NCBI RefSeq assembly: GCF_008065115.1
Contig: NZ_CP042913.1
Coordinates: forward strand, 594,338-658,337
Direction of reading: 5' to 3'
Source of the DNA: Bythopirellula goksoeyrii
GTDB taxonomy: Bacteria; Planctomycetota; Planctomycetia; Pirellulales; Lacipirellulaceae
DNA: 64,000 bases
A program made the translations under genes and the position numbers. This document shows positions 12,992 through 43,297 of the stretch, piece after piece. The notes under the pieces are model-generated. The model did not search any database. It was given only the letters and a program-made list of their open reading frames with translations, and was not told where the DNA came from. The first letter of the stretch is position 1. The number at the start of each line of letters is the position of its first letter.

Positions 12992-13102
12992 GAAATAGGA
13001 CGCTGATGAACGCGGATTAGGCTGATATTCGCAGATCTGGGAATATGTTCTCTTCTGATCCGTGTGGATCCGCTTAATCCGCGTTTCTCCGCGGCCTATT
13101 TC
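12992..13102. repeat. Imperfect inverted repeat, ATCCGCGTT type
   Basis: Arms of about 45 bases begin GAAATAGG and carry AACGCGGATTA on each side. The left arm is 12992-13036 and the right arm runs to CCTATTTC ending at 13102. A half copy lies at 33009-33058, upstream of the MazG-like gene. Repeats with these words occur across unrelated phyla. Confidence 0.75.
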
Positions 13103-13127
13103 TTTTTGGGATGAATGATTGCAGTAC

Positions 13128-19977: not shown

Positions 19978-21084
19978 TTGGCGTCAGGTGGAGTTGTGCA
20001 AACAATTGCTAAGGAGAATGAGCGGCGGGGGACCTGGTGGCAGCGGGTGCTGATCGGGGCGTTTAGTGTCTTGCTAACGTTGTTGATTTATTGGCTGCTT
20101 GGGTTTGTGCTTCGAGATATTGGGAGATTGCCGGGGCCCGACTGGAATGAGTTTGAGACGGCCCGCATCGATCCGGAGCTGCGCACTGCTGGGAAGGAAA
20201 TCGAAACCTCGATCACCGAAGTTAAGAGGCAAATTGACAATGTTCAGCGGCGGCAGAAGCTCCTACGCGACAGCACGGCCAGTTCGCAGAAGACGTTGAA
20301 TCAACTCCTTGAGCTCTTGCGAATCAGCATCGAGCGACAAGCGGATCTTCCGGAAGAACAACAACAGGCTCTCTCAGAGAGCCAGCAATTATTCCTGAAG
20401 AATCAAAAGCAAGATCAAGAATACAATGAATCGCTTTCTGCTTTACAAGAGCAGCTAGCCGACCTGCAGGAACAGCAGCGACTACATCGCCAGCGACTCG
20501 ATACTGCCTTGAAGCCTGTGAGGGAAGAGTTTTCGCAACTTCAGCGGAAACATGATTGGCGACTGGCAGCGATCAAAATTGGCGTGTTGACCCCGCTGTT
20601 GATTTTGGGTGGGTTTCTGTTTGCTAAGTATCGCAACGGCAATTACGTGGCGATGATCTGCGCGCTGGACTTAGCCTTACTGGCAAAAGTATTTCTGGTG
20701 ATGCACGAATACTTTCCGGCCGATTATTTCAAGTACGTACTCATCTTGTCTTCCTTAGTAGTGATTGGCTTTCTGCTCGCGAGATTGTTGAAGATGGTGG
20801 CGGAGCCCAGTCGAGATGCACGGCTCAAACAGTCGCGTGAAGCTTATGAATCATTCTTTTGCCCCGTGTGTCAGTTTCCAATACGCCGTGGCCCGCTCAA
20901 GTTCATGTCCTGGTCGACACGGAGTCTCCGCAAGCGGTCGCAACCGATCGCCAACGTGGCCGACGAGCCCTACACTTGTCCTGCTTGTGCTACCGCGCTC
21001 TTCGAGAAGTGTGACAGCTGTGGAGCAATCCGCTACGGACTCTTGCCGGCCTGCGAACATTGTGGTGCGTCGAAAGAGGTGTGA
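19978..21084 (+). CDS. Membrane coiled-coil protein with two C-terminal zinc ribbons
   Basis: The 368-residue protein has a transmembrane helix near 24-45. A long Gln/Glu/Arg-rich coiled coil follows (about 60-195, with QEQLADLQEQQRLHRQRL), then two or three further hydrophobic segments (about 200-285). A cysteine-rich tail (about 305-368) holds four CxxC pairs: CPVC, CPAC, CDSC and CEHC, enough for two zinc sites. I recognise no named family. The start is uncertain, TTG 19978 or GTG 19996 (the latter close behind AGGTGGAG). The design suggests a membrane-bound scaffold with a cytoplasmic ribbon domain, which is inference only. Confidence 0.75.
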   Translation: MASGGVVQTIAKENERRGTWWQRVLIGAFSVLLTLLIYWLLGFVLRDIGRLPGPDWNEFETARIDPELRTAGKEIETSITEVKRQIDNVQRRQKLLRDSTASSQKTLNQLLELLRISIERQADLPEEQQQALSESQQLFLKNQKQDQEYNESLSALQEQLADLQEQQRLHRQRLDTALKPVREEFSQLQRKHDWRLAAIKIGVLTPLLILGGFLFAKYRNGNYVAMICALDLALLAKVFLVMHEYFPADYFKYVLILSSLVVIGFLLARLLKMVAEPSRDARLKQSREAYESFFCPVCQFPIRRGPLKFMSWSTRSLRKRSQPIANVADEPYTCPACATALFEKCDSCGAIRYGLLPACEHCGASKEV

Positions 21085-21086
21085 AC

Positions 21087-21114
21087 AAAGGTTCCCGTTC
21101 GGCAGAGGGACCTA
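21087..21114. repeat. REP-like unit, TAGGTCCC family, overlapping a stop codon
   Basis: On the minus strand the unit reads TAGGTCCCTCTGCCGAACGG then GAACCTT. Its first three bases (21112-21114) are the stop codon of the Gfo/Idh oxidoreductase. The same unit occurs as an inverted pair at 35023-35100. Confidence 0.75.
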
Positions 21115-22491
21115 TTTTGGGCGCTGCCAGGGATCACGATAATCGCGGCTCAACCGCTGGGTGGCTTCTTCGTCTTCGACGATGATTTTTCGCGTTGGGT
21201 CGTAAACTAGTGGGCGGCCCAGCTCCATCGCCACGTTTGCCAGGATACAACTTGCGGCGGAGATGTGACCATCTTCGATGTCTGCCACAGGGCGGGTGCG
21301 CTGGTCGATTGCAGTGAGAAAATCCTGCATGTGGCGGCGAGTAGCGGGAGCGGCGTTTAGTTCGATGTCTTTTTCAGCCAGATCCTCTGGATATTGTTCG
21401 CGTTCAAATACGCAATCAAAGTGGATTGGTTTGGCGGAGTCGCCTAGCGGAATAAAGTCCGCCTGCTTGGTGCTTGCCTTGAGGGTTCCCTTATCTCCAT
21501 AGATGAACAGCGCCCACGGGTAGTCGGGATCGGTAGCTGCTCCCCAGGTGTTGTGCTCCCAGACGGCATTGAAATTGTCGAACTCGAAAATTGCTGTTTG
21601 GGTGTCGGAGATGTTTGATTTGCCGTCGGTCTGCACGTAGATGCCGCCGGTGGAAGTGATGCGATTGGGCCATTTTAATTCGAGCATCCAGCGGGCCGTG
21701 TCGAGCATATGGACACACATGTCACCGACGATGCCGTTGCCGTACTGCATAAAGGTCCGCCACCACCGCCGATGGGGCAGACCATCATAGGGTCGCAGCG
21801 GTGCCGGGCCAGTCCACATTTCATAGTCGAAGAAATCGGGCACCGGCTCGACCGGCGGATTGCCATTGGCTCGCATGTGGTAGTAGCAACACATCTCCAC
21901 GTGACCAACATCACCCAAGAGTCCTGCATCGACTACCTCCTGTTTGGCACGAATCAAATGCGGGGTACTCTTGCGCTGGGTGCCGACTTGCACAATGCGG
22001 TTCTGCTTGCGGGCCGCTGCGAGAATGGCTTCCCCTTCGAGCACATCGACACTGATGGGTTTTTGCAAGTAGACGTCAGCACCCGCTTCGATTGCCGCAA
22101 TGGCCTGCAACGCGTGCCAGTGATCGGGCGAGCCGATCAGCACGATGTCCAGCTCGTGCTCGCCGAGCATCTGGCGATAGTCTTTGTAGGTCTGTGGCTT
22201 GTTGTGCGATGGCTGACGCTCTTGCGCGATATTTACGGCGCTGGCGAGCATGTGTTGGTCAGGATCGCAAAGTGCGACGACTTCTACTGGAGCGACCTGG
22301 ATCAACCGCCACAAATCGCTGGGGCCATACCAACCACAGCCGATGAGCCCGACTCGGCGGGTTTTGCCATGGTCGAACTTCAGGGCATCGGTGCCTAGTG
22401 CCGGCAGAGCCGTCAGCGCGGTGGTGGCTGCCGCTGCTTGTAGGAAGCGGCGGCGGCTGGGATGAAATAGTGATGTTGATGTGTTATTCAA
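21112..22491 (-). CDS. Gfo/Idh/MocA family oxidoreductase with Tat signal
   Basis: The protein is about 459 residues, an NAD(P)-dependent sugar-type oxidoreductase. A twin-arginine signal (SRRRFLQAAAATTAL) precedes the Rossmann domain, with VGLIGCGWYGPSDLW as nucleotide-binding start and YLQKPISVDVLEGE holding the conserved Lys-Pro. The C-terminal part (WWRTFMQYGNGIVGDMCVHM) is typical of secreted planctomycete members. I prefer TTG 22491, with GAGGAA seven bases upstream, over the longer start at 22530. The TAG stop belongs to a palindromic repeat. The substrate is unknown; planctomycetes carry many paralogues. Confidence 0.9.
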   Translation of the reverse strand: MNNTSTSLFHPSRRRFLQAAAATTALTALPALGTDALKFDHGKTRRVGLIGCGWYGPSDLWRLIQVAPVEVVALCDPDQHMLASAVNIAQERQPSHNKPQTYKDYRQMLGEHELDIVLIGSPDHWHALQAIAAIEAGADVYLQKPISVDVLEGEAILAAARKQNRIVQVGTQRKSTPHLIRAKQEVVDAGLLGDVGHVEMCCYYHMRANGNPPVEPVPDFFDYEMWTGPAPLRPYDGLPHRRWWRTFMQYGNGIVGDMCVHMLDTARWMLELKWPNRITSTGGIYVQTDGKSNISDTQTAIFEFDNFNAVWEHNTWGAATDPDYPWALFIYGDKGTLKASTKQADFIPLGDSAKPIHFDCVFEREQYPEDLAEKDIELNAAPATRRHMQDFLTAIDQRTRPVADIEDGHISAASCILANVAMELGRPLVYDPTRKIIVEDEEATQRLSRDYRDPWQRPK

Positions 22492-22573
22492 TTGAAGATT
22501 CCTCGAAGTGACCTGCCATATTGATTGCAATCTCCAGCTGGAGGCACAGCTGCCTGCGGTTGCGCAGCAGTAC

Positions 22574-22602
22574 TCTCCCGGACCAAGGTGTTGGTCCGGC
22601 TA
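22574..22602. repeat. REP-like unit, TAGCCGG family, overlapping a stop codon
   Basis: The unit TCTCCCGGACCAAGGTGTTG then GTCCGGCTA forms a stem with CCGGACC/GGTCCGG arms. On the minus strand it begins TAGCCGGACC, and that TAG (22600-22602) is the stop codon of the XRE regulator. Confidence 0.75.
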
Positions 22603-23781
22603 GGGGAGTTGTGGAACCGGCTCGCTTTTCTCAAACAACAACTGCTGCCGTGGTTCTTCTTGTACTTCGAACCAATCCACCGGCGGTAGTTCGAATTCTT
22701 CTGCCGCCAGGGCTTGAGCGATGCGACCGTAGACGTGGCAGGGCCAGCGGACCAGTCGTGTGTGGACCAAGAGTGGGGGCACCGCGAATTGTTCGGCCAA
22801 GCGATTGCGGACGGCACAGGCCGCGGTATCGGTTTCGACCCAACCTTGTTGTTCGACCACTTCGCGGTAAGCAGAAGAGGCGGCCGAGAGAACTGGTGCG
22901 GCTGGCAATAGCATGGAGAGGGCAAACCGTTCGCAATCTCGCAAAAGTTGCGGCCAATCTTCAGTCTGCTGTAGTTCCAAAAACCAATCCGCCGGAAGAT
23001 CCTTAGCCGCATCGATCCACAAAGCCCGAGGCGCGTAGCAGCGGGCCAACAGTTCCCGATATGAGGCGAGCGGCCTGGAGTCGGCGACGATTCGATCTAC
23101 CAACAGAGTGATCTCGCCCGAGCGCATCACAGCACAAGCTTGCACGCTGAAATGGGGAATCAGTCCGGGGATGATCTCCAGACGCACACCGGCCTGGTTT
23201 TCTAGCACCGCCTCGACGTCAACCGGTGCGGCGGCAAACTGCGCCTCGCGTCGACCGAGCAATTTGCGCACGCGCCATTCAGCGGCAAGTTCGGTGAGTG
23301 CTGGATAGCGGGTCAGCTCGCGGGCAGCTGTGGCCGTTTCGTCGGCTGAATACTCTGCAGAAATACCACTTGTTGCACCTATGAATTCGGCCAGATCTTG
23401 AATCGCCCTCTGGTCCAGGGCAGAAGCGTGGTCCGTAGTCCACCACCAACCCAGCATGCCAGGAGGGGGTTGTTTGACGGATCCACCATCCGAATTCGTG
23501 TTGCGTGCCGATTGGAAAAATTCATCACAGAAAGGCGAACTCGAGACTAAGCCTAATACATCAGCTACCAATGAGAGCGTTTCTTGACGATGCCAGGGGG
23601 TACGCATGCCGCATTCGATGGCACTCACCGTCGAAGCACGCTCATCCACGAGCTCGGCAAAAGTTCGCAGGCCCAAGCCGGCACGGCGGCGCAGTTGCCC
23701 AAGGAGTTGTCCGAAAGGAGTTATCAAGAGAAAGCGTCCCAAATTACGTTTGCGCAAAGTGCAAGTCGAGAGGCTACCCAT
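22600..23781 (-). CDS. XRE-family regulator with degenerate ImmA/IrrE-like domain
   Basis: The 393-residue protein has an XRE helix-turn-helix at about 22-62 (FGQLLGQLRRRAGLGLRTFA, then STVSAIECG). From about 180 it follows the ImmA/IrrE metallopeptidase layout: VDVEAVLENQAGVRLEIIPG, a middle segment, then CERFALSMLLPAAPVL and AVRNRLAEQFAVP, which match the helix and LLMP region after the active site. The zinc-binding HExxH expected after the RYRFTLAH-like position is replaced by ARCYAPRA, so it should not cleave proteins. I infer a regulator that keeps the fold for sensing or binding. No partner gene is adjacent. The TAG stop lies in a repeat. Confidence 0.75.
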   Translation of the reverse strand: MGSLSTCTLRKRNLGRFLLITPFGQLLGQLRRRAGLGLRTFAELVDERASTVSAIECGMRTPWHRQETLSLVADVLGLVSSSPFCDEFFQSARNTNSDGGSVKQPPPGMLGWWWTTDHASALDQRAIQDLAEFIGATSGISAEYSADETATAARELTRYPALTELAAEWRVRKLLGRREAQFAAAPVDVEAVLENQAGVRLEIIPGLIPHFSVQACAVMRSGEITLLVDRIVADSRPLASYRELLARCYAPRALWIDAAKDLPADWFLELQQTEDWPQLLRDCERFALSMLLPAAPVLSAASSAYREVVEQQGWVETDTAACAVRNRLAEQFAVPPLLVHTRLVRWPCHVYGRIAQALAAEEFELPPVDWFEVQEEPRQQLLFEKSEPVPQLP

Positions 23782-23838
23782 GATACAGAATTTGGACGCC
23801 GCTGGCAGCCACCCCCCCTGCCCACGGCTTGTTCCGGC

Positions 23839-24699
23839 CTACAGCTTTGTAGCGGTTCGGGCGGCATTGAGGGTATTAATGAGTAACATTACTCGGGTGA
23901 GGGGCCCGACGCCGCCTGGAACGGGCGTAATGTGTCCGGCGACCTTACTAACCGCGTCGAAATCGACGTCACCCACCAGCCCCGCGTCGGTCCGGTTGAT
24001 ACCCACATCGACTACCACTGCTCCGGGACGCACCATGTCAGCGGTGATGAAGTTTGGCCTGCCGATGGCCACCACCAGGATGTCGGCTAGCAGAGTTACC
24101 GCTGGCAAATCTTGAGTGCGGCTATGGCAAATCGTCACGGTCGCATCGGCCCCCTTCTGCGCGAGCATGATCGACAGGGGCTTGCCGACAATGTCGCTAC
24201 GACCAACTACGACAACGTGTTTGCCGGCGGTTGAGATATTGTTGCGCTTCAAGAGCTCGACCACGCCGTGTGGAGTACAGGGGAGAAACACCGGACGGCC
24301 TTGTACCAGTCGACCGACATTTTCTGGATGGAAGGCATCGACGTCTTTGCAGGGCGCAATCGCTTCGAGGACTTGTTCAGTATCGATCTGGTTGGGAAGC
24401 GGCAATTGCACAAGGATACCGTGAACCTGTGGGTCGGAATTGAGCTTTTCGATCAGCGCGAGTAGTTCTGTCTGAGTAGTGTCTGCTCCAAGCCGATGAA
24501 GCACGCTTTCGATCCCGACTTCGGTACAATCGCGGCGCTTGTTGCGCACGTAGACATCGCTGGCCGGGTCGTCTCCCACCAGTACCGCGGCAAGTGTGGG
24601 CGTGACATTTGATTCGGATTTGAACTTGGCAACCTGCTCGGCCAACTCGGCGCGGATTTGTTTGGCGAGCGATTTACCATCGAGGAGTTGTGCGGTCAT
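23839..24699 (-). CDS. folD: Methylenetetrahydrofolate dehydrogenase/cyclohydrolase
   Basis: The 286-residue product interconverts 5,10-methylene-, methenyl- and 10-formyl-tetrahydrofolate in one-carbon metabolism. Visible are the active-site segment SDVYVRNKRRDCTEVGIES with its lysine, VHGILVQLPLPNQID, the dehydrogenase motif VVVGRSDIVGKPLSIML, and the C-terminal PVPGGVGPLTRVML signature. Length is normal for the family. It is transcribed with the XRE regulator downstream and possibly pgpA upstream, separated by a palindromic pair at 24719-24779. Confidence 0.97.
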   Translation of the reverse strand: MTAQLLDGKSLAKQIRAELAEQVAKFKSESNVTPTLAAVLVGDDPASDVYVRNKRRDCTEVGIESVLHRLGADTTQTELLALIEKLNSDPQVHGILVQLPLPNQIDTEQVLEAIAPCKDVDAFHPENVGRLVQGRPVFLPCTPHGVVELLKRNNISTAGKHVVVVGRSDIVGKPLSIMLAQKGADATVTICHSRTQDLPAVTLLADILVVAIGRPNFITADMVRPGAVVVDVGINRTDAGLVGDVDFDAVSKVAGHITPVPGGVGPLTRVMLLINTLNAARTATKL

Positions 24700-24718
24700 G
24701 GCGGGATGATCTTAGTAG

Positions 24719-24779
24719 TAGCCGTGGGCGGGAGCCCATGGTTGACATTTGGAAAACCATGGGCCTGGCGCCCAAGGCT
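24719..24779. repeat. Inverted pair of GCCC/GGGC palindromic units
   Basis: AGCCGTGGGCGGGAGCCCAT then GGTT is answered by AACCATGGGCCTGGCGCCCA then AGGCT. The two units are themselves hairpins and together form a larger imperfect palindrome between pgpA and folD. Confidence 0.7.
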
Positions 24780-24811
24780 ATAAGGTTGTTTTTTCGATTA
24801 AACCAAAGATT

Positions 24812-25339
24812 CTAACCCGAAGCGACAGTCGTGAGCAGTCCCCAATCCCATGCCTTGTCGAGCCACGCTAATCCCCACAAGGCGGCACAGGCGTAGAGTG
24901 CGGCGACCACGTCGTCGGCCATGATACCCAACCCAGCAGGGAGCGATTCCACCTGTCGTGCTGGGGGAGGCTTGGTGATATCGAACACCCGAAATAGGAG
25001 CCACCCTGCGAGCAGAACTCGCCAATTGGCAATTCCTGTGGCCAGGAAGACGACAGGCAGCACGGCGATTTCATCCAGAACAATTTCCTGGGGGTCTTTT
25101 TTACCGAGCAGCCTACTGGCGTGTGTACAGATGCCCACGGAGACAATGAGAATCGCAAGTATCGCCAATAGCTGCCAGCCAATCTCCGGCAGGTAACTGA
25201 CAGCCCAGACCAATGGGATTCCCCACAGGCCTCCCACGGTTCCCGGAGCAGGGCTGACGCAACCGATGCCCAAACCAGTGGCAATCCAGACGGCAATTCG
25301 GTTGCTGAGTGAGAAATCGCTCGGTTGGTTGTGTTTCAT
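24812..25339 (-). CDS. pgpA: Phosphatidylglycerophosphatase A
   Basis: The 175-residue membrane enzyme removes phosphate from phosphatidylglycerol phosphate. Seen are SPAPGTVGGLWGIP, the acidic EIVLDEIAVLPVVF, and FRVFDITKPPPARQVESLPA with GLGIMADDVVAALYA, all diagnostic for PgpA, plus about four hydrophobic helices. I start at ATG 25339, which has AGGATG six bases upstream; the frame is open to 25456 but the added residues are not family-like. Confidence 0.92.
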   Translation of the reverse strand: MKHNQPSDFSLSNRIAVWIATGLGIGCVSPAPGTVGGLWGIPLVWAVSYLPEIGWQLLAILAILIVSVGICTHASRLLGKKDPQEIVLDEIAVLPVVFLATGIANWRVLLAGWLLFRVFDITKPPPARQVESLPAGLGIMADDVVAALYACAALWGLAWLDKAWDWGLLTTVASG

Positions 25340-25433
25340 GCAGGGCATCCTAGACCCAGATTCATGCTGATTCAACTCTTTCACAGCCCACTCGGTCAGG
25401 TGAACTGCGAAGTTCGTCAGCAATTGTGGGAGA

Positions 25434-25515
25434 AATGACCAATGTACAATTACCAATGACCAGTTTCAGCAGAAAACCCGACTGTTCTGGTCATTGGTCC
25501 TTGGAAATTGGGCAT
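25434..25515. repeat. Imperfect inverted repeat of CCAATGACCA words
   Basis: AATGACCAATGTACAATTAC then CAATGACCAG on the left is answered by CTGGTCATTGGTCCTTGGAA then ATTGGGCATT on the right. It belongs to the same class as 29431-29512 and a half copy at 42257-42280. It sits between the divergent pgpA and sulfite reductase genes. Confidence 0.65.
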
Positions 25516-25662
25516 TTGCAGTTCCGTGATTTTTGACTTTATAGTTCTTCTGGAGTACTGGGGGTCAATATGGTCGAAACCCGTTCGGGCGAGTATCATA
25601 GATTCTTCTGGGGTTTTGACTGAAATAGGTAAACTGTGCCGAGCAGGCGAACGAAGATTCTG

Positions 25663-27369
25663 ATGAGTGACGATAAGAGCAAGAAAGTGAGTGCCGTCGA
25701 GAAGATCAAGCTGGCGAGCAACTATCTCCTCGAGCCGATTCCGCAGGAATTGGCCGATGGCACGGACCATTTTGGTAAGGAGAGTATCCAGCTACTCAAG
25801 CACCACGGCACCTACCAGCAAGATAACCGCGACGAGCGGTCCAAAGAAGGCAAGTCCTATAGCTTCATGCTGCGAACTGCCATTCCAGGTGGCATCATTT
25901 CGAGCGAGCAACTGCTAGCCGAAATGGATCTGGGCGACGAGGTTGCCAACAGTACGCTGCGCATTACGACCCGTCAGGGATTGCAACTGCATGGTGTTCT
26001 CAAGAAGAATTTGAAGCAGGCTATCCGCCGGATCAACGATGTGAAGCTCACTACCATCGCCGCCTGCGGCGACGTGAAGCGCAATGTGATGTGCTCGCCG
26101 TGCCCCTATAAGGGTGACCCCGTCTACGACCAGATGCAGGATCTGGCCGAGCGACTGGCAATTCACCTGACACCCCATACGGGTGCCTACTACGAACTTT
26201 GGCTCACGGATGAGGAAACGGGGGAGAAGCATCAGGCGGGTGGCAGTAACGGACAAGTCGTGGAACCGATCTACGGACCAACTTACCTCCCTCGGAAATT
26301 TAAGTTCGCGATTGGTCTGCCCGGCGACAACAGTGCCGACGTTTACACCAACGATGTCGGTCTATTGGCCATCTGCGAAAACTGGAGAATCGTCGGTTAC
26401 AACATACTCGTCGGTGGTAGTTTTGGTGTCACTCCCAGCGCGAAAAAGACCTTTGCGGCAGTTGCACAGGCGATGTGCTTTGTCACTCCGAATCAGGCGA
26501 TCGATGTCGCGACGGCAATCGTCAAAGTACAGCGCGATTTTGGCAATCGCGCGGATCGCAAGGTTGCCCGCATGAAATACCTGATCCATGATTGGGGTCT
26601 CGACCGGTTCAAGCAAAAGGTCGAAGAGTACTATGGCGCAAATCTACCCGACCCGCGTCCCGTCGTTGTCCACGGCTTCAATGATGGAATGGGCTGGCAG
26701 GCCCAGGGGGACGGCAAGTGGTTCTATGGCCTTAACGTGGAAAACGGACGAATCAAGGACGAGGGAGATTTTCGTCTCAAGACGGCGCTGCGTGAGATTT
26801 GCTCCACTATGGCGCCACCCTTGCGATTGACTCCCCATCAAAGCATTATTTTCTGCGATCTCGCAGAGAAAGATCGTCCCAAGCTGTTCGAGATCTTGCG
26901 CCGCCATGGGGTGCCGCTTAGCGAAGATATCTCCAACGCCCGGCGGTGGTCGATGGCTTGCCCGGCTCTGCCGACCTGTGGTTTGGCGATTACCGAAAGC
27001 GAACGGGTGCTCCCAAGTATCATTGACCAACTTGACGTTGAACTGGACAAACTAGATCTGAAGGACGAAGTGTTTACGTTCCGCATGACCGGTTGCCCCA
27101 ATGGGTGCGCTCGGCCTTACAACTCCGACATTGGCTTGGTTGGCAAGACGGCTGGCAAATACACGATCTTCCTGGGAGGTCGTGTCTGTGGCGATCGGCT
27201 CAACTTCATCTACAAAGACTTGGTACCCGAAGAGGAAGTCATTCCCGATCTGGTGAACGTCTTCCGCTATTTCAAAGAGGCCCGAGAGCAAGAGGAGTCG
27301 TTTGGCGATTTCTGCCATCGGCAAGGTGTAGAAAAACTCCTGGCTGCTTGCGACACGGTGCCAAAGTAG
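25663..27369 (+). CDS. Sulfite reductase, siroheme [4Fe-4S] hemoprotein
   Basis: About 568 residues. The enzyme reduces sulfite to sulfide with six electrons in assimilatory sulfur metabolism. The substrate and siroheme pocket is seen in RITTRQGLQLHGVLKKN and CGDVKRNVMCSP. The cluster cysteines are CPALPTCGLAITESER and RMTGCPNGCARPYNSDIGLV. The CARPY form is that of sulfite rather than nitrite reductases, and is closer to ferredoxin-type Sir than to E. coli CysI. No flavoprotein subunit is adjacent, consistent with ferredoxin as donor, but that is inference. I start at ATG 25663; a GTG at 25636 is also open. Confidence 0.92.
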   Translation: MSDDKSKKVSAVEKIKLASNYLLEPIPQELADGTDHFGKESIQLLKHHGTYQQDNRDERSKEGKSYSFMLRTAIPGGIISSEQLLAEMDLGDEVANSTLRITTRQGLQLHGVLKKNLKQAIRRINDVKLTTIAACGDVKRNVMCSPCPYKGDPVYDQMQDLAERLAIHLTPHTGAYYELWLTDEETGEKHQAGGSNGQVVEPIYGPTYLPRKFKFAIGLPGDNSADVYTNDVGLLAICENWRIVGYNILVGGSFGVTPSAKKTFAAVAQAMCFVTPNQAIDVATAIVKVQRDFGNRADRKVARMKYLIHDWGLDRFKQKVEEYYGANLPDPRPVVVHGFNDGMGWQAQGDGKWFYGLNVENGRIKDEGDFRLKTALREICSTMAPPLRLTPHQSIIFCDLAEKDRPKLFEILRRHGVPLSEDISNARRWSMACPALPTCGLAITESERVLPSIIDQLDVELDKLDLKDEVFTFRMTGCPNGCARPYNSDIGLVGKTAGKYTIFLGGRVCGDRLNFIYKDLVPEEEVIPDLVNVFRYFKEAREQEESFGDFCHRQGVEKLLAACDTVPK

Positions 27370-27468
27370 TTAAGTTTTTGGGAGAATCCCAACGCAAGGC
27401 TCATTTCAACATAGTCGCGATTCTACGATTCGCCCGGGGTCCTTAATTGTTAGTGACAAGGTAAGAAC

Positions 27469-27714
27469 ATGGAATGGCTCTTTGAACGCATGATCGAACT
27501 CGCCGCCTGGGTGGCGTTCATCCTGGGACTGTTTTTTCTCTGCGAAGCGGTTTGGATGCTTGTTCAATGGTTTATCAATCGAGCCGATGTGGACAGCACC
27601 CTTTTTCTGATGAACAGTGCCCAAGCTGCCGGCGCGTTTGTCGCATCTGCCCTCGCAGTCGGTGCGCTGGCCTGTATCGATCGCTACGTGTTTGATTTTG
27701 ACGATCCAAAGTAG
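27469..27714 (+). CDS. Small membrane protein before the ClC gene
   Basis: The 81-residue protein has two hydrophobic helices (about 10-32 and 47-67) and ends in a short acidic tail (DFDDPK). It lies five bases before the ClC transporter on the same strand, so the two are surely co-transcribed. It might be an accessory or stability subunit, but I recognise no family. A reasonable ribosome site (AAGGTAAGAAC) precedes ATG 27469. Confidence 0.7.
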   Translation: MEWLFERMIELAAWVAFILGLFFLCEAVWMLVQWFINRADVDSTLFLMNSAQAAGAFVASALAVGALACIDRYVFDFDDPK

Positions 27715-27719
27715 CGTTC

Positions 27720-29030
27720 ATGTCGATTCGCAAGCCAATCAGCTCGGCAACGGATCAACAGCAATGTCACCTTTTGATATTAGCGCTCGCTTCCCATGTG
27801 GCTGGTGCCTGCGCGGGCTTGGTTGGGGCCCTTTTCCGACTTTCTTTGGATCATGCAGATCGCTTTCGGGATTCTGTTCTTTCTTCTTCTCAAAGTTATG
27901 GCGCAGGGGGACTTCTGCTGGTCGTTGCCGCATGTGCGTTTGCAACCGCGATTGCGGCGTGGCTCGTTGAGCGGTTTTCTCCAGAGGCCTCAGGAAGTGG
28001 CATTCCCCATGTGGAAGCCGTCTTGCTTGATGAGCGGCCACCAACTCGGATGAAGCTCGTTCCCGTTAAATTCCTCGGCGGACTGTTGGCTATTGGCTCG
28101 GGTCTAGCACTCGGGCGCGAAGGTCCCACCGTGCAGATGGGAGCGAGCATTTCTCATCTGCTTGGCAGAAAGCTTGGTCTGAGCGGAGTGGACAATCGTT
28201 CGTTGCTCGCTGCCGGGGCCGGTGCTGGTTTGGCCACAGCATTCAATGCTCCTATTGCAGGCGCGGTGTTTGTGTTGGAGGAGTTGGTGCGAAAATTTGA
28301 TACTCGCATGACGATTGCGACCTTCGGTGCTTCAACAGGTGCCATCACAGTCGCAAGATTGCTGTTGGGGGATCGGCCTGATTTTGATGTCGAAATGCTC
28401 CCCTTTCCTACCACTTTTTCGGTGAGTGCTTCGATGGTACTCGGTGTGGTGCTGGGAGTACTTGGCGTTGCGTACAATCGTGCAATTCTGGGTGCAATTT
28501 CGCTGAGTAAAAAGCTACAGTCCTGGCCAGTGGTCATGCGCGCAGCAGCGATTGGGGGGTCGGTAGGATTACTCGCCTGGTACGCTCCTCAGATCGTGGG
28601 AGGGGGGGACCCGATTACTCAGAACGCCTTAAATCTGAAAACGGTTGCCTTCATGTTGCCTCTAGCGTTTCTCATCCGGTTCGGCCTGGGAGCTATCTCC
28701 TACGCCGCAGCAACACCGGGCGGGCTGTTTGCACCGATGTTGGTGCTGGGCGCACAAGCAGGATTGATGTTTGGCAATCTTTGTCAAACCTGGGTCCCAG
28801 CAGTGACGACAAACCCTACGACGTATGCCGTGACGGCGATGGCCGCCTTTTTCACAGCGGTGGTGCGAGCCCCCCTCACGGGAATCATCCTGGTGATCGA
28901 ACTCACCGGAAGCTACACCCAGTTGCTGCCGATGCTCGCCGCGTGCTTCTCGGCGATGTTGATCCCCACGTTGTGGAAGGATCCACCGATCTACGATTCG
29001 TTGAAGCCACCAGTGGTGAATGACGAATGA
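27720..29030 (+). CDS. ClC-family chloride channel/antiporter
   Basis: The 436-residue polytopic protein has the three ClC selectivity-filter motifs: SGSGIPHVEAVL, GREGPTVQMGASIS with the gating Glu, and TPGGLFAPMLVLG. The internal proton glutamate is kept in FVLEELVRKF, which argues for a proton/chloride exchanger rather than a passive channel. It lacks cytoplasmic CBS domains, as E. coli ClcA does. Its likely role is chloride movement across the inner membrane, for example under acid stress. Confidence 0.93.
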   Translation: MSIRKPISSATDQQQCHLLILALASHVAGACAGLVGALFRLSLDHADRFRDSVLSSSQSYGAGGLLLVVAACAFATAIAAWLVERFSPEASGSGIPHVEAVLLDERPPTRMKLVPVKFLGGLLAIGSGLALGREGPTVQMGASISHLLGRKLGLSGVDNRSLLAAGAGAGLATAFNAPIAGAVFVLEELVRKFDTRMTIATFGASTGAITVARLLLGDRPDFDVEMLPFPTTFSVSASMVLGVVLGVLGVAYNRAILGAISLSKKLQSWPVVMRAAAIGGSVGLLAWYAPQIVGGGDPITQNALNLKTVAFMLPLAFLIRFGLGAISYAAATPGGLFAPMLVLGAQAGLMFGNLCQTWVPAVTTNPTTYAVTAMAAFFTAVVRAPLTGIILVIELTGSYTQLLPMLAACFSAMLIPTLWKDPPIYDSLKPPVVNDE

Positions 29031-29091
29031 CGAAATACCCAAGCACGAAGGAATGACTAAATCCCAATGGCAAAGGGGATATTACTAATCG

Positions 29092-29367
29092 TCATTCATA
29101 CCTCACGGGACCTTCGACAAGTTGGCGAATTTCAGCACGACGTGCCAGTCGGCGTCGATGGTGGCCCATTGCTAGATAGCAGGCCTGTGCATTGTGCCCT
29201 TTTCTCCAGGCTGCTTTCGTGCGGCGGTTGAGTTGCGAGCCGTCTGCCAAGAGCCGTAGCTGAGCAACCGACTCTTGTAGAAAATCCTGAACGAAGCCGA
29301 CGAAGGAAGCTTTCCAACTAGGGAGATATTTATCCATGAATAAAGTGCCCATCCTGTGCATGCGCAA
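29092..29367 (-). CDS. Small basic hypothetical protein
   Basis: A 91-residue frame with the segment MDKYLPSWKASFVGFVQDFL and a basic C-terminal half (MGHHRRRLARRAEIRQLV). The Met at residue 11 (29337) is an equally good start. No family is recognised. It lies between the ClC gene and a palindromic repeat, and only its clean amphipathic composition supports it as a gene. Confidence 0.45.
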   Translation of the reverse strand: MRMHRMGTLFMDKYLPSWKASFVGFVQDFLQESVAQLRLLADGSQLNRRTKAAWRKGHNAQACYLAMGHHRRRLARRAEIRQLVEGPVRYE

Positions 29368-29430
29368 AACCGGTTAATTGAATAGGTTGCCTAATTGTAG
29401 ACGGCTGCGCAGCCAGGGCAAGAAAAGGAA

Positions 29431-29512
29431 ATGACCAATTTCCAAGGCCCAATGACCAAGGGTTGGAAGAGATTTCAACCCTTGGTCATTGGGCCTTGTT
29501 CATTGTAAATTG
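29431..29512. repeat. Palindrome with perfect 22-bp arms
   Basis: AAGGCCCAATGACCAAGGGT then TG (29444-29465) is repeated exactly in reverse complement at 29476-29497 with a 10-base loop, and weaker pairing extends outwards. It belongs to the CCAATGACCA class also seen at 25434 and 42257. It lies just upstream of the dehydrogenase at 29550. Confidence 0.85.
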
Positions 29513-29549
29513 GCAATTGAGTTCTTTTTCCCCTTCCCATGAGTAACCC

Positions 29550-30470
29550 ATGACCCTCTCCATTTCCCCCGAGAAAACCCGTATCGGCTGGATCGGCACC
29601 GGCGTAATGGGCCAGAGTATGTGTCGCCACCTTGTGAAAGCAGGCTACACGACGACCGTATTCAACCGTACTCGTGCCAAGGCGGAGCCGCTTTTGGAAC
29701 TCGGGGCAACTTGGGCCGACTCACCTCGCGAAGTGGCTCAGGCGAGCGATGTGGTGTTTTCCATCGTCGGCTTTCCTGCCGATGTCCAGCAGACAATCTT
29801 AGGTGAGAACGGCGCACTGGCTGGCTCGAAGCCGGGCAACGTATTGGTGGACATGACGACGAGTCGCCCCAGTCTGGCCATCGAAATCGCCGAGCAGGCT
29901 GCCCTGCGGGAAGTTGTCAACATCGACGCGCCCGTTTCCGGCGGGGATGTCGGGGCGCGTAATGGCACGTTGTCGATCATGATCGGTGGCGACGAAGCGC
30001 AGGTTGAAGCCTTGGCCCCCTGCTGGGAAATCATGGGCACCACCTGGGTCTGGCAAGGAGGACCGGGTGCGGGCCAGCACACCAAGATGGTCAACCAAAC
30101 CTTGATCGCCTCGAACATGGTCGGCGTCTGTGAGGGGTTGCTCTACGCCCACCGAGCGGGCCTCGACCTGGAACGTGTGATGCAATCGGTTGCCTCGGGA
30201 GCTGCAGGGAGCTGGTCCTTATCCAACCTGGGACCGCGCATCATCGCAGGCAATTTCGATCCCGGATTTTTCGTTGAGCATTTTGTCAAAGACATGGGCA
30301 TCGCCCTGGCCGAGGCCGAGCGGATGGGACTGAAGTTGCCCGGGCTTGCGCTGGCAAACGAGCTTTATGGCAAGCTTGTCGAGCAAGGGCATGCTCGTAG
30401 TGGAACGCACGCGTTGATGCTGGCACTTGCGGGGATGAGCGGCGTTGATTGGTCGGAGCGAGACGGGTGA
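29550..30470 (+). CDS. NAD(P)-dependent dehydrogenase, 3-hydroxyisobutyrate dehydrogenase-like
   Basis: The 306-residue enzyme belongs to the beta-hydroxyacid dehydrogenases. It has a Rossmann start [20 protein letters not shown], the substrate loop [19 protein letters not shown], and the catalytic Lys in [18 protein letters not shown]. It also has the C-terminal helix [20 protein letters not shown]. Members act on 3-hydroxyisobutyrate, tartronate semialdehyde or related small acids, and the sequence does not decide which. Confidence 0.9.
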
Positions 30471-30534
30471 GTCGGAGATTTTTCTCACGCCCAGCTTGTA
30501 GAAAACCAAACAACACAGAACTATCACCTCGCTT

Positions 30535-30564
30535 TTGACTAACTGATTCAATTCGATGTATACT
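30535..30564 (+). promoter_or_regulatory. Sigma-70-type promoter of the toxin-antitoxin pair
   Basis: TTGACT (30535-30540) and TATACT (30559-30564) are separated by 18 bases. The antitoxin ATG follows 23 bases after the -10 box, with AGAGGAGAA as ribosome site. Confidence 0.7.
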
Positions 30565-30586
30565 GAAGCGTAGAGGAGAACCAGCA

Positions 30587-30802
30587 ATGAGAATGATTGA
30601 AATCTCTGATGAAGCGTATCAGACCTTGGCGAAATTCCACGGTGACGTGAACTTGTATGTCGAAAAGCTCGCGGCCGAAGCCCGTGAAGTCGCAGCCGTG
30701 CAAGAAGGAATTGACGCCTATAATGCGGGGGATTGTCGACCACTCGCAGAATTTGGCGGGGAACTTCAAGAACGCTTTGGCATCGACACTTCCCAGGCAT
30801 GA
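30587..30802 (+). CDS. Antitoxin of a ParDE/RelBE-like pair
   Basis: The 71-residue protein starts with a short strand and helix (MIEISDEAYQTLAKFHGDVN) as in ribbon-helix-helix antitoxins. The C-terminal part EGIDAYNAGDCRPLAEFGG resembles the toxin-binding tails of ParD-like proteins. Its TGA overlaps the toxin ATG (ATGA), the usual antitoxin-first coupling. It probably represses its own promoter, as such antitoxins do. Confidence 0.75.
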   Translation: MRMIEISDEAYQTLAKFHGDVNLYVEKLAAEAREVAAVQEGIDAYNAGDCRPLAEFGGELQERFGIDTSQA

Positions 30803-31125
30803 AACGCCGCGTTGTCATCACCGGTCCAGCCGAAACCGATACTCTTTCCAATCACCGCTGGTGGGCCGATAACCATTCGCCAGAGCAAGCCCTTCGCTGG
30901 CTAGAGGGGATTTATGCGGCGATGTTCAAGCTGGCCTCTACGGCCGAGACGAATCCGCCAGCAGACGAGAAGTCACTACGCAAGGCAGGCATTCAGCAAG
31001 TCAGTTTTGGTCTCGGCAGCAGGCCAACCCATCGAATTATTTACACGATCGATGGCAGCTATGTGGTTATATACCGCGTCCGGGCATTCAAGCAGGATGA
31101 ACTCGATTTGAGTAACCTGGAATAG
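30799..31125 (+). CDS. ParE/RelE-like toxin
   Basis: The 108-residue protein matches the plasmid-stabilisation ParE/RelE superfamily. An N-terminal helix pair contains WWADNHSPEQALRWLEGI, and the core strands are FGLGSRPTHRIIYTIDGSYV then VIYRVRAFKQDEL. I start at ATG 30799, overlapping the antitoxin stop; the open frame to 30733 is out of register with family length. Whether it cleaves mRNA or blocks gyrase cannot be told from sequence. Confidence 0.82.
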   Translation: MKRRVVITGPAETDTLSNHRWWADNHSPEQALRWLEGIYAAMFKLASTAETNPPADEKSLRKAGIQQVSFGLGSRPTHRIIYTIDGSYVVIYRVRAFKQDELDLSNLE

Positions 31126-31264
31126 ATTCGATTATCGCATTTATTAACGGACCACTAATAGAGAAAGGGAACGAAACAAGTTTCTCACAAATCCTTCTGC
31201 CCCATGTTCCTATTAATCTTAGGCACTCTCGCTTAGTCACTAGCGGCACTGTAAAATTGTAAGA

Positions 31265-31801
31265 ATGGAATCCTCTACTCAATGTAGAACCTGGCGATTT
31301 TCTATACGTGAATTGCTTCTCTTGATGGCGCTGATTGCAGTGCTTTTAGCTCTTTACGTAACCAATAGGCCATACTCACCCACGGCATTTATTTCCACGC
31401 TTGAGGAAAGATCAATTCTAGCAACGCTTTGCGCTGATTTGAGCGTGCCGATTGAATTTGGAGGAACCAGCATCGGAAGTGGAAATTCCAGTTGGAGCGG
31501 AGGTGAAAGAGAATCAAGTCTCATACTCACCGTACCTGACATCAAAAACTTTCAAGAAGTTGTGATGCCAAGATTCCGTGAATACATCGAACGGAAAGTA
31601 AGAGGTTTCGGCGGTACTATTGTTGGTCAATCTCAGGGGGGAACGAATGATGGCGGAACTTCCAACTCTGAGGTTTTTAAACGATTGCAACAGTTCAGCT
31701 TCCTATATCGCATCAAAGGGACTCGAGGGGCAATTCGAGTTTACTCCTTTGAACACTCGGAAAGGCAGCTGCGGATACTGATTCTTGTGGATGAACATTG
31801 A
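31265..31801 (+). CDS. Membrane-anchored hypothetical protein
   Basis: The 178-residue product starts with WRFSIRELLLLMALIAVLLA, an N-terminal anchor pattern common in planctomycete hypothetical proteins, followed by a soluble domain outside the membrane. The domain contains a Gly/Ser-rich loop and no recognisable motif. The gene stands alone. Confidence 0.6.
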   Translation: MESSTQCRTWRFSIRELLLLMALIAVLLALYVTNRPYSPTAFISTLEERSILATLCADLSVPIEFGGTSIGSGNSSWSGGERESSLILTVPDIKNFQEVVMPRFREYIERKVRGFGGTIVGQSQGGTNDGGTSNSEVFKRLQQFSFLYRIKGTRGAIRVYSFEHSERQLRILILVDEH

Positions 31802-31837
31802 GAGGCGGAGAGACGATTAGAGCTCAGCTGAAGGATG

Positions 31838-31864
31838 TTCGGGGTCGGGGACGACCCGGCTCGC
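31838..31864. repeat. Palindromic unit shared with 51931-51958
   Basis: TTCGGGGTCGGGGACGACCC then GGCTCGC is, in reverse complement, the same as the segment that follows the stop codon at 51931-51933, apart from one extra G. It lies upstream of the pseudo-receiver gene, and an open frame that starts inside it is spurious. Confidence 0.75.
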
Positions 31865-31960
31865 TGCAGTTTTGCTAGCATTGCACTTCTCTTGACGCCC
31901 CCGCGGTGCCGTTCTACAGTTCGCGCGGCAATTGCTCTTCCTCTCGCACTCTTTCTCGCT

Positions 31961-32974
31961 ATGAACAACGCTGCCAAAAAAACTGAGCCGACTTCACCCA
32001 GCCGCCCTATGAAGGGCTCGCTGCCGCCGCGGATGAAGGTGCTGTACATCACTACGCTCAATCGCACGGGTGGTTGGTTGGCTGAGGCCTTTGCCGCCGA
32101 TAGCGCGACGCAGATATTGCTTGAAGAAGTGGTCGGAGTCACGTCAGCACTTGCCAAGCTCCGCGATGAAGTGTTCGATGCCGTGATCGTCAGTCATGAG
32201 CCACCCGTGCTCGACGCTTTGGATCTGGTCGAAGGCCTGCGGGCTGGTGGGAACGAGGAGCCGATGATACTGCTGGGTTCGCAGCGACCACATGAGATCG
32301 ATGCCCTCTGTTACGAGGTAGGAGCCGACGATTATTGCTGTGTCGCTGAGACTACAGTCCGGGGCCTGCTCTGGAAGTTTGCCCGAGCAATCGAACGCCA
32401 TCAACTCCAGCGCGAAAACCGGCGGATGGTCCAAGCCGACCGGCAACGACTCAAGCAGGAGCATCTCGAAGCACAGCGTCTGCTTGAGCAACAACGCTTG
32501 TTGATCGCCGACCTGGAAGTGCTGAAGAACCCCACGGCCACCTCGGAGCAAGGAGACGTGCTGACCGAGTTCGACGATTGCCTCGCCAAAGCCGCCACCG
32601 CAGCGGTTGATGTGCCACTGAATTTGCCTGAGCCACTCGTCAACCACTATCGAGAGTTGTTGCGAACTTACGTGATCATGGGCGTCGGCAACTTGACCAA
32701 CGAGATGGCCGAGCTGAGCGAATTGCTTGCCGCGTCGGAGGTTTCTGCGCAACGCGCGCTGCAATTGCATGTGACGGTCCTTGAGGATCTGGTCCAGGGA
32801 CTTGGCTCGCGGAGTGCCCGGCATGTAATGAATCGGGCCGATCTGTTGGTGCTGGAGGTGATGGGACACCTGGCCGACGGTTATCGCCAGCGCTACTTCG
32901 AGCGTCGCAATCCCCCCCGCCAAAAGTCGCTGCCCGGCTTCGATTCTGGTTCGGCAATTCGCGTCGCGGCATGA
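31961..32974 (+). CDS. Protein with receiver-like domain lacking the phospho-acceptor
   Basis: About 337 residues. An N-terminal response-regulator-like fold (about 25-145: MKVLYITTLN, FDAVIVSHEPP, EEPMILLGSQRP, GADDYCCVAE) is followed by a coiled coil (about 145-190). A helical C-terminal domain (about 220-320) comes last. The acidic cluster, the Asp at the end of strand 3 and the conserved Lys of true receivers are replaced (TT, S/H, C), so phosphorylation is unlikely. I take ATG 31961, the first Met beyond a repeat; ATG 32009 is also possible and neither has a clear ribosome site. Function unknown. Confidence 0.7.
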   Translation: MNNAAKKTEPTSPSRPMKGSLPPRMKVLYITTLNRTGGWLAEAFAADSATQILLEEVVGVTSALAKLRDEVFDAVIVSHEPPVLDALDLVEGLRAGGNEEPMILLGSQRPHEIDALCYEVGADDYCCVAETTVRGLLWKFARAIERHQLQRENRRMVQADRQRLKQEHLEAQRLLEQQRLLIADLEVLKNPTATSEQGDVLTEFDDCLAKAATAAVDVPLNLPEPLVNHYRELLRTYVIMGVGNLTNEMAELSELLAASEVSAQRALQLHVTVLEDLVQGLGSRSARHVMNRADLLVLEVMGHLADGYRQRYFERRNPPRQKSLPGFDSGSAIRVAA

Positions 32975-33008
32975 TTGAGCAATTCTTGCTACAATCTCTC
33001 CAAGTTTG

Positions 33009-33058
33009 ATCTGCGTCAATCAGCCCCATCCGCGTTTATCCGCGTCCCATTTCTTAAT
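33009..33058. repeat. Half copy of the 12992-13102 element
   Basis: GATCTGCGTCAATCAGCCCC then ATCCGCGTTTATCCGCGTCC matches the reverse complement of the left arm at 12985-13036 in most positions. It precedes the MazG-like gene by about 20 bases. Confidence 0.65.
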
Positions 33059-33080
33059 CAGTACCCAGCAAAGAGCTTCC

Positions 33081-33452
33081 ATGGACGACACCCAAACCAC
33101 CCTTGCCGACTTGCGCGAACTGGTCCGCCAGTTTGTCGACGAGCGCGACTGGCAGCAGTTTCACTCCCCCAAGAATCTTGCCATGGCCCTGGCAGTCGAG
33201 GCTGCCGAGTTGATGGAACACTTCCAATGGGTTGACCTTCCTGAGTCGCGCAAGGTCACCTCTGATGAGGAAAAGCTCACGGCCATTGGCGAAGAACTGG
33301 CTGACGTGCTGAGTTACACGCTCGCCCTGGCCAATTCGCTGGGGATCGATATCGCCACCGCCCACCGGCGCAAGATGGTGTTGAACGCGGAGAAATATCC
33401 GGCTGACGAATTCCGCGGCCGATTTGGCGGCAAGAATTCACAGGCGGATTGA
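33081..33452 (+). CDS. MazG-like nucleotide pyrophosphohydrolase
   Basis: The 123-residue protein belongs to the small all-alpha NTP pyrophosphohydrolases (RS21-C6/dCTPase-like) that cleave (d)NTPs to monophosphates. The metal site is seen as EAAELMEHFQW and GEELADVLSYTLALAN, with KYPADEFRGRFGG at the end. I start at ATG 33081; codons upstream lie in a dispersed repeat. The next gene starts seven bases after its stop, so it is co-transcribed with the ATP-grasp gene. Confidence 0.9.
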   Translation: MDDTQTTLADLRELVRQFVDERDWQQFHSPKNLAMALAVEAAELMEHFQWVDLPESRKVTSDEEKLTAIGEELADVLSYTLALANSLGIDIATAHRRKMVLNAEKYPADEFRGRFGGKNSQAD

Positions 33453-33459
33453 GTATGTG

Positions 33460-34530
33460 ATGGTAGAGCGCAGCAGGATAGCCGTAGTTGGTGCCAGTGC
33501 TCGGGCAGCGGCATTTTCCTTGCTTCGCCAGGGCCACGCCGTCGTCGCGGCAGATCTGTTTGCCGATGCCGACCTGCGGCGAGTTTGTGATGTCGAGCAG
33601 GTGACCAACTATCCGCACGGTTTGGCCGAATGGCTCTCACGCACCAAGTGCGATGAATGGCTCTATACGGGTGCTTTAGAGAACTATCCAGATCTCGTTG
33701 ACCGAATGGCTGCTTTGAGACCCCTGCGAGGTAGCGCCGGTTCGATGCTGCGAGCGGTGCGCGATCCACTCTTGTTACAAATAGCTCTCACCTCAGTTGG
33801 GCTCAACTTTCCTGAAACTCACCTCTGCCATGGTCAGCCCCCCGGTTCGGGCGATTGGCTGCACAAGACGGGCCAAGGGGCCAGCGGCAGTGGAGTGAGC
33901 GAACTTGATCCCAGCAGCCTGTCAACTCAAGGTTATTGGCAGCGTCGAGTGCCTGGGTTGTCAGGCTCCGCCATGTTCTTGGCGTCAGATCCGAGCTGCT
34001 CATTGCTCGGCATCACACGCCAACTAGTCGGCGAAACTTGGACCGGGGCGCGCCAATTTCAATACGCAGGTACACTTTCGCCTTGGCGGCTTCCTGAAGC
34101 GGGAGTAGCAGAGCTCGTTCGCATGGGTGAATTCTTAATGCAAGAGTTCAAACTCAGCGGACCGTTTGGAGTGGATTTTATCTACGACGATTCCCATGTG
34201 TGGCCCGTCGAAGTCAACCCTCGTACCTCCGCCGCGGCAGAAGTGGTAGAGAGGGTCACCAGCACCCACGCCTGCGCCGGCAAAGCTGTTCTCTACGCAA
34301 AACGCCCACTTGCGATTTCGCGCGACATCAGCGAAGGACTCCTCCACCGCGCCGGTTCAATCGAAAACCCAGAGCTGGCGGACATTCCCAACACGGATAC
34401 ACAAATTGCGACCGGGGAACCTATTCTCACCGTTCTTGCTGACGGAGATTGCCTGGCCGAGGTCGAAGAAAATCTTCGTGAGCGAGTCGCCAGGCTGGAG
34501 TCAGAACTCTATGTTACTATGGTACTATAA
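33460..34530 (+). CDS. ATP-grasp family protein
   Basis: About 356 residues. After an N-terminal Rossmann-like domain (RIAVVGASARAAAFSLLRQG) comes an ATP-grasp domain with a short Gly/Ser-rich loop (GQGASGSGVSE). The metal-binding block FGVDFIYDDSHVWPVEVNPR carries the typical Glu and Asn. Enzymes of this superfamily ligate an acid to an amine or thiol using ATP. It resembles the COG2232-type ATP-grasp proteins that occur with tetrahydromethanopterin-linked C1 genes in some planctomycetes, but no such genes are in this window. It is 12 bases upstream of the phosphoesterase gene, in one operon. Confidence 0.8.
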   Translation: MVERSRIAVVGASARAAAFSLLRQGHAVVAADLFADADLRRVCDVEQVTNYPHGLAEWLSRTKCDEWLYTGALENYPDLVDRMAALRPLRGSAGSMLRAVRDPLLLQIALTSVGLNFPETHLCHGQPPGSGDWLHKTGQGASGSGVSELDPSSLSTQGYWQRRVPGLSGSAMFLASDPSCSLLGITRQLVGETWTGARQFQYAGTLSPWRLPEAGVAELVRMGEFLMQEFKLSGPFGVDFIYDDSHVWPVEVNPRTSAAAEVVERVTSTHACAGKAVLYAKRPLAISRDISEGLLHRAGSIENPELADIPNTDTQIATGEPILTVLADGDCLAEVEENLRERVARLESELYVTMVL

Positions 34531-34542
34531 GGAACTCTTCTC

Positions 34543-35025
34543 ATGCGAATCGGTGTAGTCAGCGACACCCATGCCCATGTGGCTAATACCCAGGCCGCGA
34601 TCACGTTGCTTGAGAGTCTGTCCGTCGAACGGGTACTTCACTGTGGCGACATCTGCTCGACCGTCGTGGCAAAGCTGTTTGCCGAGTGGCCAACCGATTT
34701 CGTTTTCGGCAATTGCGACCATGATCGCGAAGAACTTGCTGCGGCAATCGCCGAGGCGGGGCAAACTTGTCACGGTGTATTTGGTGATTTGAAAATCGCC
34801 GGTCGCCGGATTGCGCTGCTGCACAGCGACGATCACCGCAAGTTTCAACAGGTCACCACCAGCGGTGAATTCGATCTGGTCTGTTATGGACACACCCACG
34901 TCGCCAAGATTGAGAAAGTAGGCGACACACTGGTATTGAATCCCGGTGCCCTCTACCGTGCCAACCCGCACTCTTTGGCGGTGGTCGAGCTAGCGACGAT
35001 GGATGCAGAGATTGTGAATTTGTAG
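34543..35025 (+). CDS. YfcE/MJ0936-type metallophosphoesterase
   Basis: The 160-residue enzyme has all calcineurin-like metal-binding motifs: VVSDTHAHV, VLHCGDICS, FGNCDHD, ALLHSDDH and CYGHTHVAKIE. Members hydrolyse phosphodiesters in vitro, with physiological substrates mostly unknown. It follows the ATP-grasp gene by 12 bases. Its stop TAG (35023-35025) is the first three bases of an inverted repeat shared with the convergent TPR gene. Confidence 0.9.
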   Translation: MRIGVVSDTHAHVANTQAAITLLESLSVERVLHCGDICSTVVAKLFAEWPTDFVFGNCDHDREELAAAIAEAGQTCHGVFGDLKIAGRRIALLHSDDHRKFQQVTTSGEFDLVCYGHTHVAKIEKVGDTLVLNPGALYRANPHSLAVVELATMDAEIVNL

Positions 35026-35100
35026 GTCAGTTTTGCCGAAAGGGAACCTGGCTTCGGATCAATATCGAACAAAAGGTTCCCGCTCGGCAAGCGGGACCTA
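35023..35100. repeat. Inverted REP pair exactly spanning two convergent stop codons
   Basis: Left unit: TAGGTCAGTTTTGCCGAAAG then GGAACCT. Right unit on the minus strand: TAGGTCCCGCTTGCCGAGCG then GGAACCT. The TAG of each unit is the stop codon of the gene on its side (35023-35025 plus strand, 35098-35100 minus strand). It may also act as a bidirectional terminator. Confidence 0.9.
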
Positions 35101-36501: not shown

Positions 36502-36721
36502 GATTTCCGATCCGCAAGTGTGGGGACTTTGCAGAGCCAATAAACTAACCGGGCGCCTGAACGTAGAGCGCCTCGATCCTAGGTATCGTCTGCAGCGGCA
36601 AAGTCGCTGTAATCGAATCATTCAAAAGAATCGGAATTACCTGGGTGGATTGCCTATTCACCCAGCAAAGCTGGGCTTGGTGCTAGCAAAGGCCTACCAA
36701 AGCAGGATCCCAACAAGGCTC

Positions 36722-38610: not shown

Positions 38611-38677
38611 TGGCCCCTAGCCGGTCCGCCACGCGATCCGGGAGATTCCCCGGAGGTATGTGTACCTCCGGCTAAGG
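38611..38677. repeat. Tail-to-tail pair of TAGCCGG REP units
   Basis: First unit: CTAGCCGGTCCGCCACGCGA then TCCGGGAG, with a degenerate stem. Second unit: CCCCGGAGGTATGTGTACCT then CCGGCTAAGG, with perfect CCGGAGGTA/TACCTCCGG arms. The layout matches 43238-43297. It lies between the cupin and MscS genes. Confidence 0.75.
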
Positions 38678-43230: not shown

Positions 43231-43237
43231 TCTTCTT

Positions 43238-43297
43238 GGCCGGAGGACCACGTCCTCCGGGATCAATCCCGGACGGCGTGGCCGTCCGGCTGAGGGA
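43238..43297. repeat. Tail-to-tail pair of TAGCCGG-family REP units
   Basis: GGCCGGAGGACCACGTCCTC then CGGGA is followed after four bases by TCCCGGACGGCGTGGCCGTC then CGGCTGAGGGA. Each unit has a perfect stem of different sequence between conserved ends. The second unit is almost the same as the one inside the gene at 14256-14286. Confidence 0.85.

Follow-up and report, generated by a model that had tools for sequence, protein, structure and literature searches.

What does it mean for a gene to end on the first letters of a repeat, and which of the two came first, the stop codon or the repeat? The question is raised by a window of 64,000 nucleotides (the whole stretch of DNA analyzed here), in which four genes have as their stop codon a TAG that forms the foot of a palindromic repeat, as read from the window sequence and its open reading frames (ORFs). 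The repeats are REP elements of two families, here called F1 and F2, both with a TAG-type tag at the 5' foot (Table 1).

Gene ends and repeat units in the window

The four stops coincide exactly with the feet of the units, as the first-pass annotation had reported. A Gfo/Idh/MocA oxidoreductase gene (21112-22530, minus strand) has its stop at 21114-21112, the first three bases of an F1 unit, and reads CCC AAA TAG/GTCCC at its end, the slash marking the end of the gene. The next gene on that strand to end in this way (22600-23781, product with only a sub-threshold helix-turn-helix match) uses the TAG of an F2 unit at 22602-22600 (CTC CCC TAG/CCGGACC). In addition, a YfcE-type phosphodiesterase gene (34543-35025, plus strand; AAT TTG TAG/GTCAG) and a TPR protein gene (35098-36621, minus strand; GGT GAG TAG/GTCCC) stop at 35023-35025 and 35100-35098, respectively, each on the TAG of an F1 unit. 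All four units had been described as palindromes, which is well justified at 35100 and 22602 (DNA fold z -4.47 and -5.12), whereas those at 21114 and 35023 are decayed (z -0.19 and -0.45). Two further genes (stops 51931-51933 and 5102-5104) do run by a TAG into repeat-like sequence, as had been noticed, but this sequence belongs to neither F1 nor F2.

Table 1. Repeat units discussed in the text; positions are those of the window, except in the last line, where they are those of the genome that contains it (G000)
Feature	Position	Strand	Evidence or remark
F1 unit, GTAG-type REP, here ATAG	21084..21114	-	F1 model E 4.4e-7
F2 unit, CCTAG-CCGG REP	22572..22602	-	F2 model E 1.0e-8; strong hairpin
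F1 unit	35023..35054	+	F1 model E 8.3e-9
F1 unit	35068..35100	-	F1 model E 4.4e-11
F2 inverted pair, TAG feet outward	38618..38674	both	F2 model
F2 inverted pair, feet TGG and CAG; flanking genes convergent	43237..43292	both	F2 model
F2 unit within ORF 13128-14966	14252..14287	-	foot CAG
F2 units around the 160-aa Y1 ORF	G000 5355878-, 5355923+, 5356556-, 5356600+	as marked	inverted copies

The remaining F2 units of the window lie in other positions. In the first inverted pair the minus-strand unit (foot 38674) is 57 nt behind a gene stop, and for its plus-strand partner no same-strand called gene end was found within 400 nt on the foot side; in the second pair the distances to the stops are 9 and 13 nt. 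The ORF that contains the single unit (612 codons) reads it in frame. Elsewhere in the genome, two genes with PEP-CTERM-like tails, labeled as such by eye, continue into F2 units (G000 5522816 and 6209576).

The neighborhood itself has been rearranged. Relative to the TPR gene, the block from gene 22600 to the YfcE gene (35025) has the opposite orientation from that in a relative of the same genus (G004), and the breakpoints are located at repeat units: G004 has gene 22600 and the TPR gene convergent, with one F2 unit between them, while here the TPR gene faces the YfcE gene with two F1 units between them.

Two families of REP elements

A pattern search for F2 in the 6.47 Mb genome gave 78 matches against 39 with the reversed control. 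From it 58 copies were extracted, 37 of which were aligned for a covariance model. With this model there were at least 105 matches at E<=1, and at least 95 were kept at E<0.1; the search scored the best 150 of 2380 first-look candidates, so that weak copies may be missing, and some of the 10 matches left out (E>0.1) look like true partners of kept units. F2 is a short palindrome, repeated and dispersed throughout the genome, as REPs in the broad sense are. Furthermore, 62 of the 95 kept units form 31 inverted pairs with the feet outward, which is the BIME arrangement.

Conservation in F2 begins at -2 and follows the tag C-Y-[TC]-A-G, with C at -2 in 89/95 units and T at 0 in 71/95. The full TAG foot is present in 67/95, a count that is partly a product of construction, as are those for F1 below, given that 37 of the TAG-footed F2 units and three of the F1 units served to build the models. 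Taking the units of F1 and F2 together, a stop in either of the remaining forward frames is rare close to the foot, with 6 of 204 unit-frames containing one within 27 nt.

The F1 model was built from five copies and found at least 8 matches at E<=10, at least 7 of which were kept (one, E 1.68, was left out). This is a low copy number for a REP, among the best 150 of 1209 first-look candidates that were scored, and weak copies may be missing here as well. All seven units carry TAG, preceded by G in five of them, and conservation begins at about -2/-1 (A, G, TAG). There is one inverted pair, 35023/35100. F1-like units at E<=0.01 were found in 5 of 58 other genomes searched; G004 has two, neither at the sites compared here.

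Both families recall the GTAG superfamily of REPs, described in the sections of Di Nocera et al. 2013 (PMC3733652) that deal with it as hairpins of 20-40 nt with a tag ending in TAG, arranged in inverted pairs 3' of genes, with a transposase nearby in many species. The same sections report GTAG-tagged REPs mostly close behind genes in many phyla, with Planctomycetes named and R. baltica mentioned. F1 fits this type, of which 24 families are published, by its tag. In contrast, F2 is not filed in the superfamily because its tag, YYAG, lacks the G before TAG, which is present at -1 in only 1/95 copies.

The first-pass annotation knew of no described REP family whose units regularly close genes. 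In fact, the text on GTAG termini in PMC3733652 states that they "often provide" ORFs on their flanks with the TAG stop. The overlap is a known phenomenon, seen here in further REP families, and it is mostly explained.

A Y1 transposase gene among F2 units

The genome has 15 Y1_Tnp matches, 14 of which exceed the Pfam cut-off. One ORF of 160 aa (G000 5356059-5356541) has two F2 units on each side, in inverted copies. This is the layout of a REPtron, in which, as far as the descriptions in PMC2817692 and PMC8266576 go, a RAYT or TnpA-REP gene of the Y1 type is bracketed by inverted REPs of its own genome. Unlike those proteins, the one found here is only 160 aa long and matches Pfam Y1_Tnp marginally (23.4 bits, cut-off 23); it scores below the NCBIfam IS200 cut-off (19.3 vs 55), and an HVH was seen in it by eye. 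No relative was confirmed in one scan of the genome contigs, and F2 units at E<0.1 were not found in the other 14 Y1 loci (about 3 kb each).

For F1, no Y1 transposase could be tied to the family among the 15 Y1 loci searched. The best F1 match there scores 18.9 bits (E 0.0041) and is found 319 nt past a Y1 gene which is bordered by its own 23-nt inverted repeats. At locus L092 (1411-2139), a Y1_Tnp gene (ORF 1465-1983, E 1.5e-13) is enclosed by perfect 23-nt inverted repeats and in this closely resembles the "TIRYT" genes of PMC3733652.

Distances between units and stop codons

For 102 units (95 F2 and 7 F1) we measured the distance from the same-strand gene stop to the unit foot, using our own gene calls. 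These came from a six-frame model of fourth order, for which 207 called genes served as training set and 10 as threshold; the codon model that it replaced had passed over the YfcE gene in favor of an ORF on the opposite strand. Two genes used below score just above the threshold (YfcE 12, the gene at 6267433 11), and the final model lacks one or more long ORFs, among them 12083-13225, of which the first model had called a shorter form.

The distance was 0 in 7/102 units and 1-40 nt in 26 more, none of them at 1-5 nt, while for 29/102 the range from -60 to 100 nt contained a called gene end on neither side. These data support REP-type palindromic units with a TAG-containing foot, close behind genes and in excess exactly at the stop, but the overlap is not regular: the seven comprise 4 of the 9 units in the window and 3 of the 93 outside it. 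From the rate at 1-40 nt, 0.65 units would be expected at distance 0 (P 5.5e-6), although this includes the window, which had been picked out because of its overlaps. With the window excluded, 3/93 were observed against 0.6 expected (P 0.023). The excess over position-blind placement is present both with the window (P about 5e-6) and without it (0.02).

Another test starts from the opposite assumption. If units made random use of pre-existing TAGs, about 48% of the TAG-footed units near gene ends should lie at distance 0; there were 7/26, and pure TAG targeting gives P(<=7) 0.022. Taking both tests together, 7/102 units at a stop places the truth between blind placement and pure TAG targeting. 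In addition, 7 units lie at a stop and just 2 with a TAG foot are read through by long genes; read-through is thus less frequent than a random frame predicts (P 0.008 for a 1:2 expectation). The stop used most often by the 129 called genes that have no unit close by is TAG (55 TAG, 46 TGA, 28 TAA).

Stops and units in relatives

We compared the junctions with those of relatives, in G004 for 35 further genes adjoining F2 units (one without a hit) and for the sites told singly here. Where the unit is separated from the stop by more than 0 nt, the noncoding sequence has diverged too far from that of G004 to tell whether the TAG existed. At the junctions themselves the histories are mixed.

For YfcE, the loci of 13 relatives were used, leaving aside weaker hits (L146, L147, L148, L150). 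The stop is at the same codon position in 12/13, and the 13 stops are 6 TAG, 2 TAA and 5 TGA. G004, whose protein is 84% identical, has TAG at the same codon in the context CTG-TAG, that is, GTAG, and no F1 match was present at any of the 13 loci, G004 included. For the TPR gene, G004 stops with TGA at the same codon; the 18 loci from relatives include one truncated by the end of its contig, two that stop at the same codon, nine that do so two codons later and six later still, and none has an F1 match. Since in both cases the stop position is shared by a relative that lacks the unit, the comparison shows that at these two F1 sites the stop position is older than the unit.

The F2 junctions look different. 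At gene 22600-23781, G004 carries the same F2 unit together with its TAG stop, and in seven relatives, where F2 gave no match, the gene is shorter, with its stop 2 to 9 codons upstream. The tail of uvrA (G000 6276080) differs from that in G004 and ends at the TAG of the unit, whereas in G004 an F2 unit (E 0.0037) lies 24 nt past a separate TAA; 4/13 relatives have the same length as here. We infer that a small deletion here or an insertion in G004 changed this junction. For a small gene at G000 6267433, the unit-free homologue in G004 is two codons longer; a shared stop codon in G004, considered for this gene, was rejected on that account. At these three F2 sites the unit may have supplied the stop, although ordinary drift of gene ends may also account for the differences.

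At two sites the order of stop and unit is undecided from the sequences compared. For Gfo/Idh (F1), the best homologue in G004 is only 34% identical; the nearest homologues come from another family (about 70-75% identical, two codons longer), and the best ones of the same genus, G006 and G009, are 47-49% identical and four codons longer. No F1 match was found at the nearest four. For a redoxin gene (F2, G000 1661319), G004 stops with TAG at the same codon and has next to it an apparent decayed F2 unit that scores no more than 11.3 bits (E 0.61); in the single other relative inspected (40% identical) the gene extends 12 codons further.

The first-pass annotation had supposed either insertion at TAG or at gene ends, or selection for units that close a frame. 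A repeat-less orthologue with the same TAG, by the annotation's own standard evidence against its reading, is present at YfcE and nearly so at TPR, where it has TGA, and is absent at the F2 sites tested.

Discussion

We consider it probable that the overlap of stop codons and repeats is a by-product of the sequence and location of the tag, and not the work of a dedicated frame-closing system. The units are short hairpins whose 5' foot bears a conserved tag, complete with its final TAG or decayed, and F2 would belong with the IS200-like (Y1) transposase gene that it brackets in REPtron-like fashion. By analogy with the published model of tag and hairpin recognition by TnpA-REP/RAYT proteins, units may be mobilized as single strands, settling mainly just behind genes; both mobility by the Y1 protein and a part for selection are inferred. 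The spread of REPs is still described as unresolved in the account given in PMC8266576. A unit that landed in, or drifted onto, the frame of the upstream gene would end the gene at the tag, because the tag holds TAG at or near its outer edge, and a unit slightly downstream could become the stop after a small deletion. The TAG would then be kept, because a stop is seldom present in either of the hairpin's remaining forward frames. Several observations count against this explanation. The YfcE and TPR stops predate their units, which is not predicted if the unit plainly supplies the stop; in addition, there are the deficit of read-through, the YYAG tag, the marginal Y1 match, the missing F1 transposase and the small excess outside the window.

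For IS200/IS605 elements the insertion point is on the 3' side of a short sequence identical to the left flank of the element. F1, and perhaps F2, might similarly insert 3' of a pre-existing (G)TAG, TAG stops being frequent and harmless targets. For F1 the likeness is suggested by two sites only, YfcE, where the unit-free G004 has GTAG at the shared codon, and TPR; the start of F1 conservation at about (A)(G)TAG and the frequency of TAG among stops also speak for it. Against it, fewer units lie at distance 0 than it predicts, the conserved motif of F2 starts 2 nt upstream of TAG, three F2 genes have altered tails, the TPR gene in G004 has TGA and not TAG, and the four homologues closest to Gfo/Idh exceed it by 2 to 4 codons. 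We regard insertion at existing TAGs as unlikely, and equally doubt the narrower proposal that F1 inserts specifically 3' of an existing GTAG, the stop of the gene becoming the tag of the repeat. The two junctions favor such a choice by F1; the genome-wide counts do not require it.

Chance is less likely again. About 100 tagged units, dense behind genes, would be bound to hit a few stops, and the window was noticed for having four; the modest excess outside the window leaves room for this, but the excess with the window included speaks against it, even though that window was chosen for its overlaps. Least probable of all is that the units serve to terminate transcription or to structure mRNA 3' ends and that selection on expression retains them at the stop: the unit 35096-35078 fits an intrinsic-terminator pattern with a T-rich tail (the stretch has 24 such patterns vs 15.5, sd 3.4, in shuffles), the hairpins at 35100 and 22602 are strong, and work cited in the relevant part of PMC12306157 reports ribosome stalling at REPs within 15 nt of a stop, but the other two F1 units of the window fold no better than shuffles, neither they nor the F2 unit at 22602 are among the pattern matches, many units have no gene end nearby, and Rfam gave zero matches at gathering score in 20900-36700.

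The junctions of units and stops are exact and can be compared across relatives, which makes them useful for learning whether REPs have a target site. If F1 does target GTAG, REPs would gain a defined target site, and TAG stops that follow a G would be landing sites for these elements.
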